Of a DNA stretch of 38,116 nucleotides, positions 12,003 to 33,477 are shown piece by piece. Numbering within the stretch: position 1 is the stretch's first letter; the number at the start of each line of letters is the position of its first letter. The notes under the pieces are model-generated. The model searched no databases. It was not told the DNA's origin and worked only from the letters and a program-made list of their open reading frames with translations. A program made the position numbers and the translations under genes. This stretch comes from Methylovirgula sp. (lineage in GTDB: Bacteria > Pseudomonadota > Alphaproteobacteria > Rhizobiales > Beijerinckiaceae): assembly GCA_030036945.1 (NCBI GenBank), contig JASHSB010000028.1, positions 1-38,116 of the forward strand. The letters are read 5' to 3'.

Positions 12003-15000
12003 GTGAAGACACCGCGCAAACCAGCCGCTCCCCGCAGGCCGAAGGAGCCCGAGCTCGACCTGCCTTTTCCCAAGGACGAGCGACGGATGATTTCGATTCG
12101 CGGCGCGCGCGAGCATAACCTCAAAAACGTCGATCTCCTCGTCCCGCGCGACAAGCTGGTGGTGTTCACCGGGCTGTCCGGGTCTGGCAAGTCGTCGCTC
12201 GCCTTCGACACGATCTATGCCGAGGGGCAGCGCCGCTATGTCGAATCGCTTTCCGCCTATGCCCGGCAGTTCCTGGAGATGACGCAAAAGCCCGACGTCG
12301 ATCAGATCGACGGGCTTTCGCCGGCGATTTCCATCGAGCAGAAAACGACCTCGCGGAACCCGCGCTCGACGGTCGCCACGGTCACCGAGATCTACGATTA
12401 TATGCGGCTCTTGTGGGCGCGCGTGGGCATTCCCTATTCGCCGGCGACCGGCCTGCCGATCCAGAGCCAGACGGTGAGCCAGATGGTCGATCGCGTGCTC
12501 GCTTTGCCGGAGCGCACGCGGCTCTATCTGCTGGCTCCCGTGGTGCGCGGCCGCAAGGGCGAATATCGCAAGGAAATCGCCGAATATATGAAGCGTGGCT
12601 TCCAGCGCCTGAAGATCGACGGCGCGTTCTACGAAATCTCGGAAGCGCCGGCGCTCGACAAGAAACTCAAGCACGACATTGAGGTGGTGGTCGATCGCAT
12701 CGCGGTGCGCGCCGACATGGGGGCGCGGCTCGCCGAGAGTTTGGAGACGGCACTCGATCTTGCCGAGGGGATCGCGATCGTCGAATATGCCGACGAGACT
12801 CCGTCTCCCCGATCACGGGGAGAGGGCCGGGGTGAGGGGCCTCGTCCTAACCCTCTCCCCGCCAGCGGGGAGAGGGGACCTAGGCAGATCGTCTTTTCTT
12901 CGAAATTCGCTTGTCCGGTTTCCGGCTTCACGATCCCCGAAATCGAGCCACGGCTCTTTTCGTTCAACAATCCGTTCGGCGCGTGCCCGGTTTGCGACGG
13001 GCTCGGCAGCGAAGAGACGGTCGATGCGGAACTGGTCGTGCCCGATCCGAAGCTCACCTTGCGTAAGGGCGCGATCGTGCCATGGGCGCGCTCGACGTCG
13101 CCGTATTATTTGCAGACACTCGAGTCGCTCGCCAAACATTACAAGTTCCGGCTCGACGCGCCGTTCGAGGATCTGCCGGAGCGGGTACGGGATATCATCC
13201 TCTATGGGTCGGGCGAGGAGCAGATCCGCTTTTCCTATAACGACGGTCTGCGCTCCTATGACGTGAAAAAGCCGTTCGAGGGCGTCGTCAGTAACCTTGA
13301 GCGCCGCTATCACGAGACGGAAAGCGAGTGGGCGCGCGAGGATATCGCGCGTTTCATGACGGCGACGCCGTGCACCGCCTGCAAAGGCTATCGGCTGAAG
13401 CCCGAGGCGCTGGCGGTGAAGATTGATCGCAAGCACATCGGCGAAGTGGCCGAGCTCTCGGTGCGCGAGGCGCGCGTCTGGTTCGCCGACCTGCCCGACA
13501 AGCTCAACGAGAAACGCGGCGAGATCGCCAGACGCATCCTGAAAGAGATCGGCGAGCGGTTGCGGTTTCTGGTCGACGTCGGCCTCGACTATCTGACATT
13601 GTCGCGCGCCTCGGGCACGCTGTCGGGCGGCGAAAGCCAGCGCATCCGGCTCGCTTCGCAGATCGGCTCGGGGCTCAGCGGCGTGCTTTACGTGCTCGAC
13701 GAGCCGTCGATCGGCCTGCATCAGCGCGACAACGCCAAGCTGCTCGAAACGCTGCGCCGGCTGCGCGATCTCGGCAACAGCGTCATCGTGGTCGAACACG
13801 ACGAGGACGCGATCCTCACCGCCGATCATGTCGTCGACGTAGGGCCGGGCGCCGGCATCCATGGCGGTGAGATCGTCGCGCAAGGCACCGCCGCCGAGAT
13901 CATGGCCGAACCGAAGTCGCTCACCGGCCAGTATCTGTCGGGCGAGCGGCAGGTGCCGCTGCCGCGCACGCGGCGCAAGCCGCGGCCGGGACGCGAGCTC
14001 AAGATCGTCGGCGCCACGGGCAACAACCTAAAGCATCTGTCGGTCGATATTCCGCTCGGCCTATTCACCTGCGTCACCGGCGTCTCCGGCGGCGGCAAAT
14101 CGACTTTGATCCTCGATACGCTTTACAAGGCGGTGGCGCGCCGCCTCAACGGCGCGTTCGAACATCCGGCGCCGCTCGAGGCGATGGAGGGATTGCAGCA
14201 TCTCGACAAGGTGATCGACATCGATCAATCGCCGATCGGCCGCACGCCGCGTTCCAATCCCGCCACCTATACCGGTGCGTTCACCCCGATCCGCGATTGG
14301 TTCGCCGCTTTGCCGGAAGCCAAGGCGCGCGGTTATCAGCCAGGGCGTTTCTCGTTCAACGTGAAAGGCGGACGCTGTGAAGCCTGCCAGGGCGACGGGG
14401 TCATCAAGATCGAGATGCACTTCCTGCCCGACATCTACGTCACCTGCGACGTTTGCAGGGGAAAACGCTACGAGCGCGAAACGCTGGAGGTGAAGTATCG
14501 CGACAAGTCGATCGCCGACGTGCTCGATATGACGGTGGAGGAAGCGGCCAGCCTGTTCAAGGCCGTCCCGACGATCCGCGAGAAGCTGGAGACTCTGTCG
14601 CGCGTTGGGCTCGGCTACATCAAGCTAGGCCAGCAGGCGAATACGCTGTCGGGTGGCGAGGCGCAGCGCGTGAAACTCGCCAAGGAACTGGCGCGCCGCG
14701 CCACCGGCCGCACCCTTTACATCCTCGACGAGCCAACTACGGGCCTGCACTTCCATGACGTGGCCAAGCTGCTCGAAGTGCTGCATCAGCTCGTTGATGC
14801 CGGAAACAGCGTCATCGTCATCGAGCACAATCTCGATGTCATCAAGACCGCCGATTGGGTCATCGACCTCGGCCCGGAGGGCGGCGACGCGGGGGGCGAG
14901 CTTGTCGCGCAGGGCACGCCCGAAGAGGTCGCCAAAGCGCCGCAGAGCTACACCGGCCAATATCTGAGGCCGATTCTGGCTCGCCCGCCGGCCCGCAAAC

Positions 15001-18179: not shown

Positions 18180-18186
18180 GCGCGCC

Positions 18187-18224
18187 AACCCTCTCCCAGA
18201 GGGAGAGGGTGGCTGCGGGGTTAC
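18187..18224 (+). repeat. CCCTCTCCC palindromic element, middle (short) copy
   Basis: AACCCTCTCCCAGAGGGAGAGGGTGGCTGCGGGGTTAC. Confidence 0.8.
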
Positions 18225-29806: not shown

Positions 29807-31753
29807 ATGCTGCAATACGTACCAAGGTCGGCCGCGAGGCCGGGGAAAGCGCGAGCGAGCCTTTCCTCGACAGGGCGAAAGCTCTGGCCCTATCTCTGGC
29901 CGACCGGACGGCGCGATCTGATCGCCCGCGTGCTGGCGACTTTCGCCCTGCTGCTGATCGCCAAGCTGGTCACGATCGCGGTCCCTTACTCGTATAAGTG
30001 GGCGACGGATGCGCTCGTCGGCCATGGCCACGCGCACCGCCACGCCGTTATCGGTCTGGTCGTCGGCCCGCTCCTCCTGACGTTGCTCTATGGATTGCTG
30101 CGGATCGCCATGGCGGCGTTCACGCAGGCGCGCGACGCCGTCTTCGCGGCGGTGGCGATGCACGCCGTGCGCCGTCTCGCCAACGACGTATTCGTCCATC
30201 TTCACCTGCTGTCGCTGCGCTTCCATCTTGAGCGCAAGATTGGCGGGCTGACCCGCGTCCTCGAGCGCGGCCGCAACGCGATCGAAACCTTCGTGCGCAC
30301 CACCGTGCTGGTCGCGGTTCCGACCGCGGTCGAGTTCGTGCTGATCCTCGCCGTTTTCTTCTTTCAGTTCGATTGGCGTTATACGCTCGCCGTCGCGGTA
30401 ATGATCATCGCCTATGGCGCCTTCACACTCGTCGCCACGAACTGGCGCATCGGCATCCGCCGCTCGATGAACGAGAGCGACACGGATGCAAATACCAAGG
30501 CGCTCGACAGCCTGCTCAACTACGAGACGGTGAAATATTTTTGCGCCGAGGGACGCGAAGCGACGCGCTACGACACGTCGATGGCGCGTTACGAGCAGAC
30601 CAGCATCAGATCCTATACCTCGCTGACCTTTCTCAACCTCGGCCAAGCGGTGATCTTCACGTTAGGACTCACGATGGTGATGGCGATGAGCATCACCGGG
30701 ATCAGGGCCGGCAGGAACAGCGTCGGCGACTTCGTGCTCATCAACGCAATGATGATCCAACTCTATCAGCCGCTGAATTTTCTCGGCATGGTGTATCGCG
30801 ACATCCGCCAGGCGAAGATCGATCTCGAGATGATGTTCGACATCTTGGCCGTACATCCGGAAATCGCCGACCGGCCGGGCGCCAGGCCGCTCGTCGTCGC
30901 GGGCGGCTATCTGCACTTCGAAAACGTGCATTTCCGCTATGATTTGGACCGCGAGATTCTCAAGGGCGTGAGTTTCGACGTTCCGCCCGGCCGGACGGTC
31001 GCCATCGTCGGCGCTTCCGGGGCCGGCAAATCGACGGTCTCGCGGCTGATCTTCCGTTTCTACGAACCTTGGTCCGGGCGGATCAGCATCGACGGACAAG
31101 ATATCGGCGACGTCACCCAGCGTTCGCTGCGCGCCGCGATCGGCATGGTGCCGCAGGACACCGTGCTGTTCAACGACACGCTGGCCTATAACATCCGCTA
31201 CGGGCGCGCCGAGGCGAGCGACGCCGAAGTGAGGGAAGCCGCGCGGCTTGCGCAGATCGACCGTTTCATCGAGAGCGCGACCGGCGGCTATCAGGCGCAG
31301 GTCGGCGAACGCGGCCTGAAACTGTCGGGCGGCGAGAAGCAGCGCATCGCAATCGCCCGCACGATTCTGAAGGCGCCGCCGATCCTCGTGCTCGACGAAG
31401 CGACGTCGGCGCTCGATACGTTGACCGAACAAGAGATTCAGGCGGCGCTCGATCGCGTATCGCGGGGACGCACGACGCTGGTCATCGCGCATCGTCTCTC
31501 GACCGTCGTCAACGCCGACGAGATCCTGGTGCTCGATCATGGCGAGATCGTCGAGCGCGGTTCGCACGCCGCCTTGCTGGCGCAGCACGGGCTTTACGCC
31601 GGCATGTGGAACCGCCAGAACGAAGTGCGGCGCGCCGAGGAGATCCTGCGCCGGGCGGCGCCCACGGCGGCGCACGTCGAACTTGACGGAGAGGCGAATG
31701 GGCGAGAGGAACAGACCTATCCGGAGGAAAACGAGGATATCGCGCTTGGCTGA
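29807..31753 (+). CDS. ABC transporter permease/ATPase, Atm1/HMT1-like heavy-metal exporter family
   Basis: Six-TM N-terminal region, NYETVKYFCAEGREATRYD; Walker A GASGAGKS, signature LSGGEKQRIAIART, Walker B ILVLDEATSALD. Confidence 0.93.
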   Translation: MLQYVPRSAARPGKARASLSSTGRKLWPYLWPTGRRDLIARVLATFALLLIAKLVTIAVPYSYKWATDALVGHGHAHRHAVIGLVVGPLLLTLLYGLLRIAMAAFTQARDAVFAAVAMHAVRRLANDVFVHLHLLSLRFHLERKIGGLTRVLERGRNAIETFVRTTVLVAVPTAVEFVLILAVFFFQFDWRYTLAVAVMIIAYGAFTLVATNWRIGIRRSMNESDTDANTKALDSLLNYETVKYFCAEGREATRYDTSMARYEQTSIRSYTSLTFLNLGQAVIFTLGLTMVMAMSITGIRAGRNSVGDFVLINAMMIQLYQPLNFLGMVYRDIRQAKIDLEMMFDILAVHPEIADRPGARPLVVAGGYLHFENVHFRYDLDREILKGVSFDVPPGRTVAIVGASGAGKSTVSRLIFRFYEPWSGRISIDGQDIGDVTQRSLRAAIGMVPQDTVLFNDTLAYNIRYGRAEASDAEVREAARLAQIDRFIESATGGYQAQVGERGLKLSGGEKQRIAIARTILKAPPILVLDEATSALDTLTEQEIQAALDRVSRGRTTLVIAHRLSTVVNADEILVLDHGEIVERGSHAALLAQHGLYAGMWNRQNEVRRAEEILRRAAPTAAHVELDGEANGREEQTYPEENEDIALG

Positions 31754-31759
31754 CGACAG

Positions 31760-31802
31760 CCCTAGACACGACAGTTTCCAAAGGAAACTGTCGTGTCTAG
31801 GG
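31760..31802. repeat. Perfect inverted repeat, 20-bp arms, 3-nt loop
   Basis: CCCTAGACACGACAGTTTCC-AAA-GGAAACTGTCGTGTCTAGGG, 7 nt after the ABC exporter stop. Confidence 0.97.
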
Positions 31803-31875
31803 ATCGACCGGTTATCCTATCAACTTTTGCGAAACTGGGCTCTGCAGGCCGCTCGCGGCAGGGGTGATTGACCCA

Positions 31876-32574
31876 ATGAACCTCCTCGAATCGATTCGTG
31901 GGCAGATCGTGCCCGTTCATCGCGACGGCTATTTGTTCGTCGCGATCTTCGCGGTCGTGACGATCATCCTTTTCTTCCTGTATGTGCCGCTCGGCTGGAT
32001 CGCGCTCGTGTTGACCCTGTGGTGCGCGTATTTTTTTCGCGATCCGCCGCGGCTCACTCCGCTCGACGCCGCGCTGGTGGTTGCTCCGGCCGACGGCCTG
32101 ATTTCCGCCGCGGGGCCGGGCGTGCCGCCGCCGGAGCTCGGCCTCGGTCCCGAACCTTTGCCGCGCATCTCGATCTTCATGTCGATCTTCGATTGTCACC
32201 TGAACCGCGCGCCGGTCGCCGGCCGGATCGGCAAGATCGTCTATCGGCCGGGCCTGTTCCTCAACGCCGATCTCGATAAAGCAAGCGAAGACAACGAACG
32301 CAATTGCGTGGTCATCGAGGCGACGAACGGACGCGTCGGCGTGGTGCAGATTGCCGGACTCATCGCGCGGCGGATCCTTTGCTTCGCCGCGGTCGGGGAG
32401 GCGATCGAAGCGGGGCAGCGTTTCGGCCTGATCCGCTTCGGTTCGCGGGTTGACGTCTATCTGCCGTCCGATGCGCGGCTGCTCGTCGCGGCGGGGATGC
32501 GCGCCGTCGGCGGGGAGACGGTCATCGCCGATTTCCGCGCCCTGGAGTCGCCCCGCGCCTTTAAACGCAGCTAA
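31876..32574 (+). CDS. psd: phosphatidylserine decarboxylase (archaetidylserine decarboxylase-like short form)
   Basis: APADGLISAAG, FMSIFDCHLNRAPVAGRI, ERNCVVIE, GLIRFGSRVDVYLP with the Gly-Ser autocleavage site. Confidence 0.95.
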   Translation: MNLLESIRGQIVPVHRDGYLFVAIFAVVTIILFFLYVPLGWIALVLTLWCAYFFRDPPRLTPLDAALVVAPADGLISAAGPGVPPPELGLGPEPLPRISIFMSIFDCHLNRAPVAGRIGKIVYRPGLFLNADLDKASEDNERNCVVIEATNGRVGVVQIAGLIARRILCFAAVGEAIEAGQRFGLIRFGSRVDVYLPSDARLLVAAGMRAVGGETVIADFRALESPRAFKRS

Positions 32575-32610
32575 TTTTGCCGGCTCGGCGATGTGCACTA
32601 TGCTGGCGGC

Positions 32611-33477
32611 ATGCCGACGTTAACGCCACGCAAATTCTCGCTGCGCCCGGGCGAAGCTGTCTCGGGAACGGAGCACGGCAACGAGGCCGAATCGCCGCGT
32701 CTCGGCGTGGTGCACGCCCGCACGTTCCGCGCCGTGCCGCTGCGCATCATCCTGCCCAATCTCCTCACGCTGCTCGCGCTTTCGATCGGTCTCACCGGGG
32801 TCCGATTCGCCGTGGAAGGCCAGTTCGAACTCGCCGTGCTGGCCGTCATCGTCGCGGCGATCCTCGACGGGCTCGACGGACGTCTGGCGCGCGTTCTGCG
32901 CGGCACGTCGCGGTTCGGCGCGGAACTCGATTCGCTTGCTGACTTCGTCGATTTCGGCGTCGCACCGGGATTGATCCTGTATTTCTGGAACCTGCACCAG
33001 ATGAAGAGCCTCGGCTGGTTCGCCGCGCTGGTTTTTGCGATCGCCTGCGCGCTGCGCCTGGCGCGTTTCAACGTCATGGCGGAGGATCCGGACCAGCCGG
33101 CTTGGCGCGTGCACTTCTTTACGGGGATGCCGGCGCCGGCGGGAGCGGTCGTCGGTCTTCTGCCCGTCTACCTCAACCTTTCGGTCGTCGCGTTTCCCGC
33201 GACGCACGGGTTTGCGCCGTTCGAGATCGCCTACGTCCTGATCATCGCGTTTCTGATGGCGAGCCGAATTCCGCATTTCTCCGGCAAGCGGATCGGCCGC
33301 GTGCCACGCGAATACGTGATCGCAGTGTTGTTCGGGATCGCGGTCGGCGTGCTTTTGCTGGCGACTTTTCCGATGGAAATGCTGGCCTTCCTCAGCCTCG
33401 CCTATCTCGCGACGATTCCGTTTGCGATCTATCGCTACAACCGTTTCGCGACTGCCGCCGAGGCGCCGCAGCATTGA
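32611..33477 (+). CDS. pssA: CDP-diacylglycerol--serine O-phosphatidyltransferase
   Basis: DGLDGRLARVLRGTSRFGAELDSLADFVDFGVAPGLILY CDP-alcohol phosphotransferase motif; start 32593 or 32611. Confidence 0.95.
   Translation: MPTLTPRKFSLRPGEAVSGTEHGNEAESPRLGVVHARTFRAVPLRIILPNLLTLLALSIGLTGVRFAVEGQFELAVLAVIVAAILDGLDGRLARVLRGTSRFGAELDSLADFVDFGVAPGLILYFWNLHQMKSLGWFAALVFAIACALRLARFNVMAEDPDQPAWRVHFFTGMPAPAGAVVGLLPVYLNLSVVAFPATHGFAPFEIAYVLIIAFLMASRIPHFSGKRIGRVPREYVIAVLFGIAVGVLLLATFPMEMLAFLSLAYLATIPFAIYRYNRFATAAEAPQH

Follow-up and report, generated by a model that had tools for sequence, protein, structure and literature searches.

The window analysed here is a stretch of 38,116 nt on contig JASHSB010000028.1, and coordinates refer to positions in it unless a genome:contig label is given. 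Its source genome, G000, is a Methylovirgula-like member of the Beijerinckiaceae with a 1.8-Mb assembly that is 85% complete. In the window, an Atm1-type ABC exporter gene is followed by psd, a pssA-like gene and a maf-like gene (Table 1). Inspection of the sequence reveals a perfect hairpin of 43 nt with 20-bp arms and an AAA loop at 31760–31802, in the junction between the exporter gene and psd. For psd, we placed the start at the ATG at 31876, which was picked by the family model and agrees with the matches to psd relatives, as these begin at residue 4–5 of the longer psd reading; GTG 31864 is also possible. An ABC-type gene lies directly upstream of psd in 44 of the 78 Rhizobiales psd loci with a readable upstream gene, mostly less than 100 nt away, which fits co-transcription of exporter and psd. 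A scan limited to sigma-70-type promoters found none in the spacer between the stem and psd. We infer that exporter, psd and pssA are likely co-transcribed.

Table 1. Features of the exporter–psd junction and the adjoining genes (window coordinates).
Feature	Position	Strand	Basis
Atm1-type ABC exporter gene, 648 aa	29807–31753	+	Open reading frame; best PDB match 4mrn (ATM1-type heavy metal exporter), E=1.2e-173
Spacer CGACAG, 6 nt, exporter stop codon to stem	31754–31759	+	Sequence
5' arm CCCTAGACACGACAGTTTCC (CTAG foot, GTTTCC tip)	31760–31779	+	Sequence; covariance-model match at 31760–31802 on both strands
Loop AAA (TTTT in G008, CAAAA in G009)	31780–31782	+	Sequence; orthologue alignment
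3' arm GGAAACTGTCGTGTCTAGGG, fully complementary to the 5' arm	31783–31802	+	Sequence; folding
Spacer, 73 nt, stem to psd	31803–31875	+	Sequence
psd, phosphatidylserine decarboxylase	31876–32574	+	NCBIfam NF003677, above cutoff
pssA-like CDP-diacylglycerol-serine O-phosphatidyltransferase gene	32593–33477	+	TIGR00473, 101.7 bits, slightly below the cutoff of 107

RNA folding of the 43-mer alone yields –36.5 kcal/mol (z = –11.3), and a 91-nt context of the hairpin yields –44.1 kcal/mol (z = –7.3). The hairpin is the sole perfect inverted repeat of such length within the window, where the arm is present only as the two hairpin copies and shuffles expect 0 occurrences at ≤3 mismatches. On re-checking, the sequence, the coordinates, the perfect 20-bp arms and the AAA loop of the original prediction were all exact, and the lack of a U tract was confirmed, with no T tract after the stem on either strand. 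The stem had been placed 7 nt after the exporter stop, which holds when the count includes the first base of the stem; the spacer itself measures 6 nt, as the reading frame ends at 31753. An extra ACGACAG said to overlap the exporter stop is indeed present at 31753–31759, but neither congener preserves the 7-mer in full: G008 retains only CGACA and G009 nothing. We therefore dropped this echo as a part of the element and treated it as chance. Each hairpin arm contains one CTAG. Across 0.91 Mb of G000, this tetranucleotide occurs 394 times where base composition would predict 3,251, a depletion of about 8-fold.

The hairpin is single-copy in G000, as far as the 85% complete assembly shows. Searching G000 with the 16-mer core of the arm (≤3 mismatches) recovered only this locus, apart from scattered weak matches of the kind expected by chance. 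A covariance model of the three orthologues gave its sole G000 match here, nothing significant in the genus beyond G008 and G009, and no copy in other genera. Uniqueness in the genome, which the original prediction had listed, together with an ordinary transcription end at the hairpin, as what would speak against it, was thus found for the assembled 85% of G000. In a survey of 0.91 of 1.81 Mb of G000 that used no sequence pattern, perfect hairpins with arms of at least 20 bp number only two, including this one. A covariance-model search of 149 family genomes with strict filters (E≤0.01) returned only this locus; no G008 or G009 match was listed, both genomes apparently lying outside the draw. 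Likewise, an exact 18-mer scan of GTDB contigs gave no match elsewhere, the arm had no close match in 100 relatives beyond G008, and BLAST of the element against plasmids and phages gave only chance-level matches. No Rfam family reached its gathering threshold in the window, and the sub-threshold matches were mostly to miRNA-precursor hairpins. A search of 80 further named psd loci for perfect hairpins (arms of at least 11 bp) was positive only in Methylovirgula JOPF209, which is apparently G009 itself.

Several other repeats were noticed in G000. A perfect palindrome with 21-bp arms CCGGTATCATGTAGCAACCGC and a TG loop (L121, G000:C16:829–872), the other of the two long perfect hairpins in the surveyed part of G000, interrupts a comM-like gene. 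We considered it as a relative of the window hairpin and rejected it as unrelated, because it lies inside comM and is linked to inverted ends in relatives. In G005, the comM-like gene is split, and a near-identical 21-mer marks each of the two breakpoints in inverted orientation (C21:4025 and C21:7607, 3.6 kb from each other). G003 carries a copy at the same comM position. This looks like a comM-targeting element that has been reduced to its two ends in G000, or like an assembly collapse. Elsewhere in the assembly (G000:C83:2784–3349), another comM copy is partly broken and adjoins a related end sequence; it represents either a duplicate or a contaminant contig. Inverted repeats of the CCCTCTCCCC type occur at 12801–12876 and 18181–18217 of the window and at L128, L133 and L186, and form a separate dispersed family in G000. 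Hairpins with GAAGCAATCCAG at L110, L119, L138 and L167 represent another short palindromic repeat of this genome.

The window hairpin is orthologous in three species, and its arms covary. It is found at the same exporter–psd junction in two congeners (G008 C128:15246–15289; G009 C184:3953–3997), with a distance from stop codon to stem of about 5–7 nt in G008 and about 14 nt in G009, compared with 6 nt in G000. Relative to G000, the G008 stem carries one two-sided change from A-T to G-C, and the loop is replaced. In G009, two other base pairs have changed on both sides, each arm has gained one base that pairs with its counterpart, and the outermost and innermost pairs of the stem are lost. Among the interior pairs of the three species, three have changed on both sides, and one-sided changes do not occur. 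All three carriers share the same CCTAG foot and GTTTC tip. The covariation score is reached by 14 of 500 shuffles, a signal that, coming from three sequences, is suggestive and not overwhelming. In each of the two adjoining genes, G000 and G009 are identical at about 64% of fourfold sites; synonymous sites are thus well diverged while the stem remains paired.

G005 provides an empty site, in which the stop codon is joined to the GTTATCC anchor by 8 nt. In the psd tree, G005 falls just outside the three carriers (carrier support 85/86), and the exporter tree leaves its placement relative to the carriers unresolved. The simplest history would be one gain in the common ancestor of the carriers. 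The hairpin is absent from most relatives and is thus not essential.

The foot and tip letters link the hairpin to a set of palindromes elsewhere in the family. Searching 199 family genomes with the foot and tip pattern yielded 27 matches in G174, 13 in G188 and several in G137, G152, G214 and G211, compared with 0–1 per genome for a reversed-control pattern; palindromes may match on both strands, so that copies are somewhat fewer than matches. For a random arm, combining a CTAG[AG] foot with a GTTTC tip has a probability of about 1e-5. The dispersed palindromes fold as near-perfect hairpins of the size of the window hairpin, and a related palindrome is found at a Bradyrhizobium locus (L052). 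Copies at L236–L255 (from G174, G188, G137, G214 and G211) read CCTAGA...GTTTC-loop-GAAAC...TCTAGG. On one side of most copies in G174, G188, G137 and G214 lies an AAAACAA / GCGTCAAAACAA module. As the pattern itself favours hairpins with this foot and tip, long hairpins were also surveyed independently of it. In 0.4 Mb of G137, a genome selected because the pattern search had flagged it, five of seven belong to the CTAG/GTTTC class.

Comparing the window hairpin with this class reveals a shared layout: CTAG near the foot, a GTTTC-loop-GAAAC tip, a near-perfect stem of about 20 bp and a short loop of 3–7 nt. Moreover, the dispersed copies lie mostly between genes as predicted by heuristic gene calls, and the window hairpin is likewise intergenic. 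However, the window hairpin lacks the flanking AAAACAA / GCGTCAAAACAA module and is single, whereas matches to the class range from several to 27 per genome. The AAAACAA module gave 4 matches in 0.91 Mb of G000, versus 3 for the reversed control. As the module is absent and the model has no match in other genera, homology to the dispersed class rests on layout. The window hairpin is probably a solitary, flank-less relative of the class, not a proven member, and its origin from a dispersed repeat is plausible. The original prediction of a dispersed repeat or MITE-like remnant thus holds for the layout, which matches a class found elsewhere, but not for G000, where the element is not dispersed and is vertically inherited at one site.

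Palindromes of several published families share features with the window hairpin. The GTAG- and CGTC-tagged REPs are also short extragenic palindromes, some of them in Bradyrhizobium and Rhodopseudomonas (PMC3733652). They have stems of 5–13 bp (GTAG) or 8–9 bp (CGTC) and an unpaired tag (PMC3733652, Table 1), whereas the window stem measures 20 bp, has CTAG inside the stem and carries no unpaired tag. Br-REP1 and Br-REP2 of Bradyrhizobium are transcribed 3'-UTR palindromes, but differ in their consensus (Br-REP1: CCGGAATCTCGAGATTCCGG) and occupy about 50–200 sites (PMC5082802). The Rhizobium RIME and the S. meliloti REP elements are intergenic palindromes as well, some of them transcribed (PMC2873474 and references therein); unlike the window hairpin they are high-copy. 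As cited in PMC5082802, REPs hinder 3'-5' decay and affect translation if they lie ≤15 nt from the stop codon.

With its long stem close to a stop codon, its lack of a U tract and its place in a probably co-transcribed unit, the hairpin fits an exonuclease barrier, an RNase III substrate or an effect on ribosomes, and we infer that it functions at the RNA level. RNase III requires about two helical turns. We give roughly even chances to a vertically inherited palindrome that, in the transcript, serves as a 3' barrier of the REP-like kind, as an RNase III site, or as both, in the stretch separating the exporter gene from psd-pssA. The element would have entered or arisen in the exporter–psd junction in the common ancestor of the three Methylovirgula-like species, and a stem of 19–22 bp would have been kept since. 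The exporter-psd-pssA transcript would then fold a long double-stranded hairpin 6–14 nt past the exporter stop codon. As REP-like elements do, this hairpin would block 3'-to-5' exonucleases and so protect the exporter message. Alternatively or in addition, RNase III could cut the hairpin and uncouple the exporter from expression of the phospholipid genes. Ribosomes may also be affected, as the hairpin lies less than 15 nt from the stop codon. Against an inherited RNA-level element, self-templated correction of the arms could also maintain their matching without selection, and only three sequences carry the covariation. More tentatively, the hairpin may be a lineage-specific, repeat-derived intercistronic RNA element with pairing selected for in all three species, which would set the ratio of exporter to phospholipid synthesis through RNase III or through ribosome or 3'-exonuclease effects. 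Among the candidates of the original prediction, a processing or attenuation hairpin appears to be the best fit, judged by position and compensatory changes.

The same data bear on four other explanations. If the hairpin were what remains of a mobile or repeat palindrome, neutral and without function in the cell, with arms kept matched by template switching, the clean empty site in G005 and the layout reminiscent of dispersed palindromes would be explained. The loops of the sister species, AAA and TTTT, are also what loop inversion or template switching would give. However, the CCTAG foot and the GTTTC tip are identical in three species despite diverged synonymous sites, template switching alone would not fix these letters, and the genus holds no paralogue; we consider a remnant possible but doubtful. 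Likewise possible but doubtful is that the hairpin ends or pauses exporter transcripts, as a terminator or attenuator lacking the canonical U tract, with psd and pssA expressed by partial read-through or from their own promoter. The long stable stem directly after the stop codon is in line with it, as is the T-rich AACTTTTGCG about 20 nt further downstream, which G008 keeps as AACTTTTCGC. Yet on neither strand does a U run follow within 10 nt, a terminator scan makes no call at the hairpin, and a 20-bp stem is much longer than those of typical terminators. The sigma-70-type scan, moreover, offers no promoter-like site before psd. The arrangement of an intrinsic terminator, a GC-rich stem followed directly by a U run, is not present, which argues against an ordinary one.

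As a perfect dyad upstream of psd whose outer and inner letters are conserved, the hairpin could be an operator bound by a dimeric regulator that controls the phospholipid genes, and the original prediction had suggested a regulator site. The dyad is very unlikely to be one: a perfect palindrome of 43 bp far exceeds the usual operator length, and its middle varies freely yet remains paired, which a half-site reader would not tolerate. G000 also contains no second site, and in all three species the position is 6–14 nt behind the stop codon. Most improbable is a recently transposed MITE formed of two terminal inverted repeats. Its near-abutting inverted arms and the G005 site without the element resemble such an insertion, but the hairpin is single-copy, occupies the same site in three diverged species and has no clear target-site duplication, whereas multiple copies and target-site duplications characterise MITEs. 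Neither the 18-mer scan of GTDB contigs nor, beyond G008, the arm search in 100 relatives revealed a close match.

RNA hairpins that separate or protect neighbouring messages are of a kind already known in outline. If the function at the RNA level holds true, the exporter–psd junction would exemplify a palindromic repeat that has become fixed, in single copy, within an operon, for which the empty site of G005 would serve as a natural control; otherwise, the hairpin would be an ordinary solitary palindrome. We found no published name for the CTAG/GTTTC class in the mostly open-access literature, and it may well be described already. The hairpin also points to an abundant and apparently unnamed class of palindromes in the Beijerinckiaceae.
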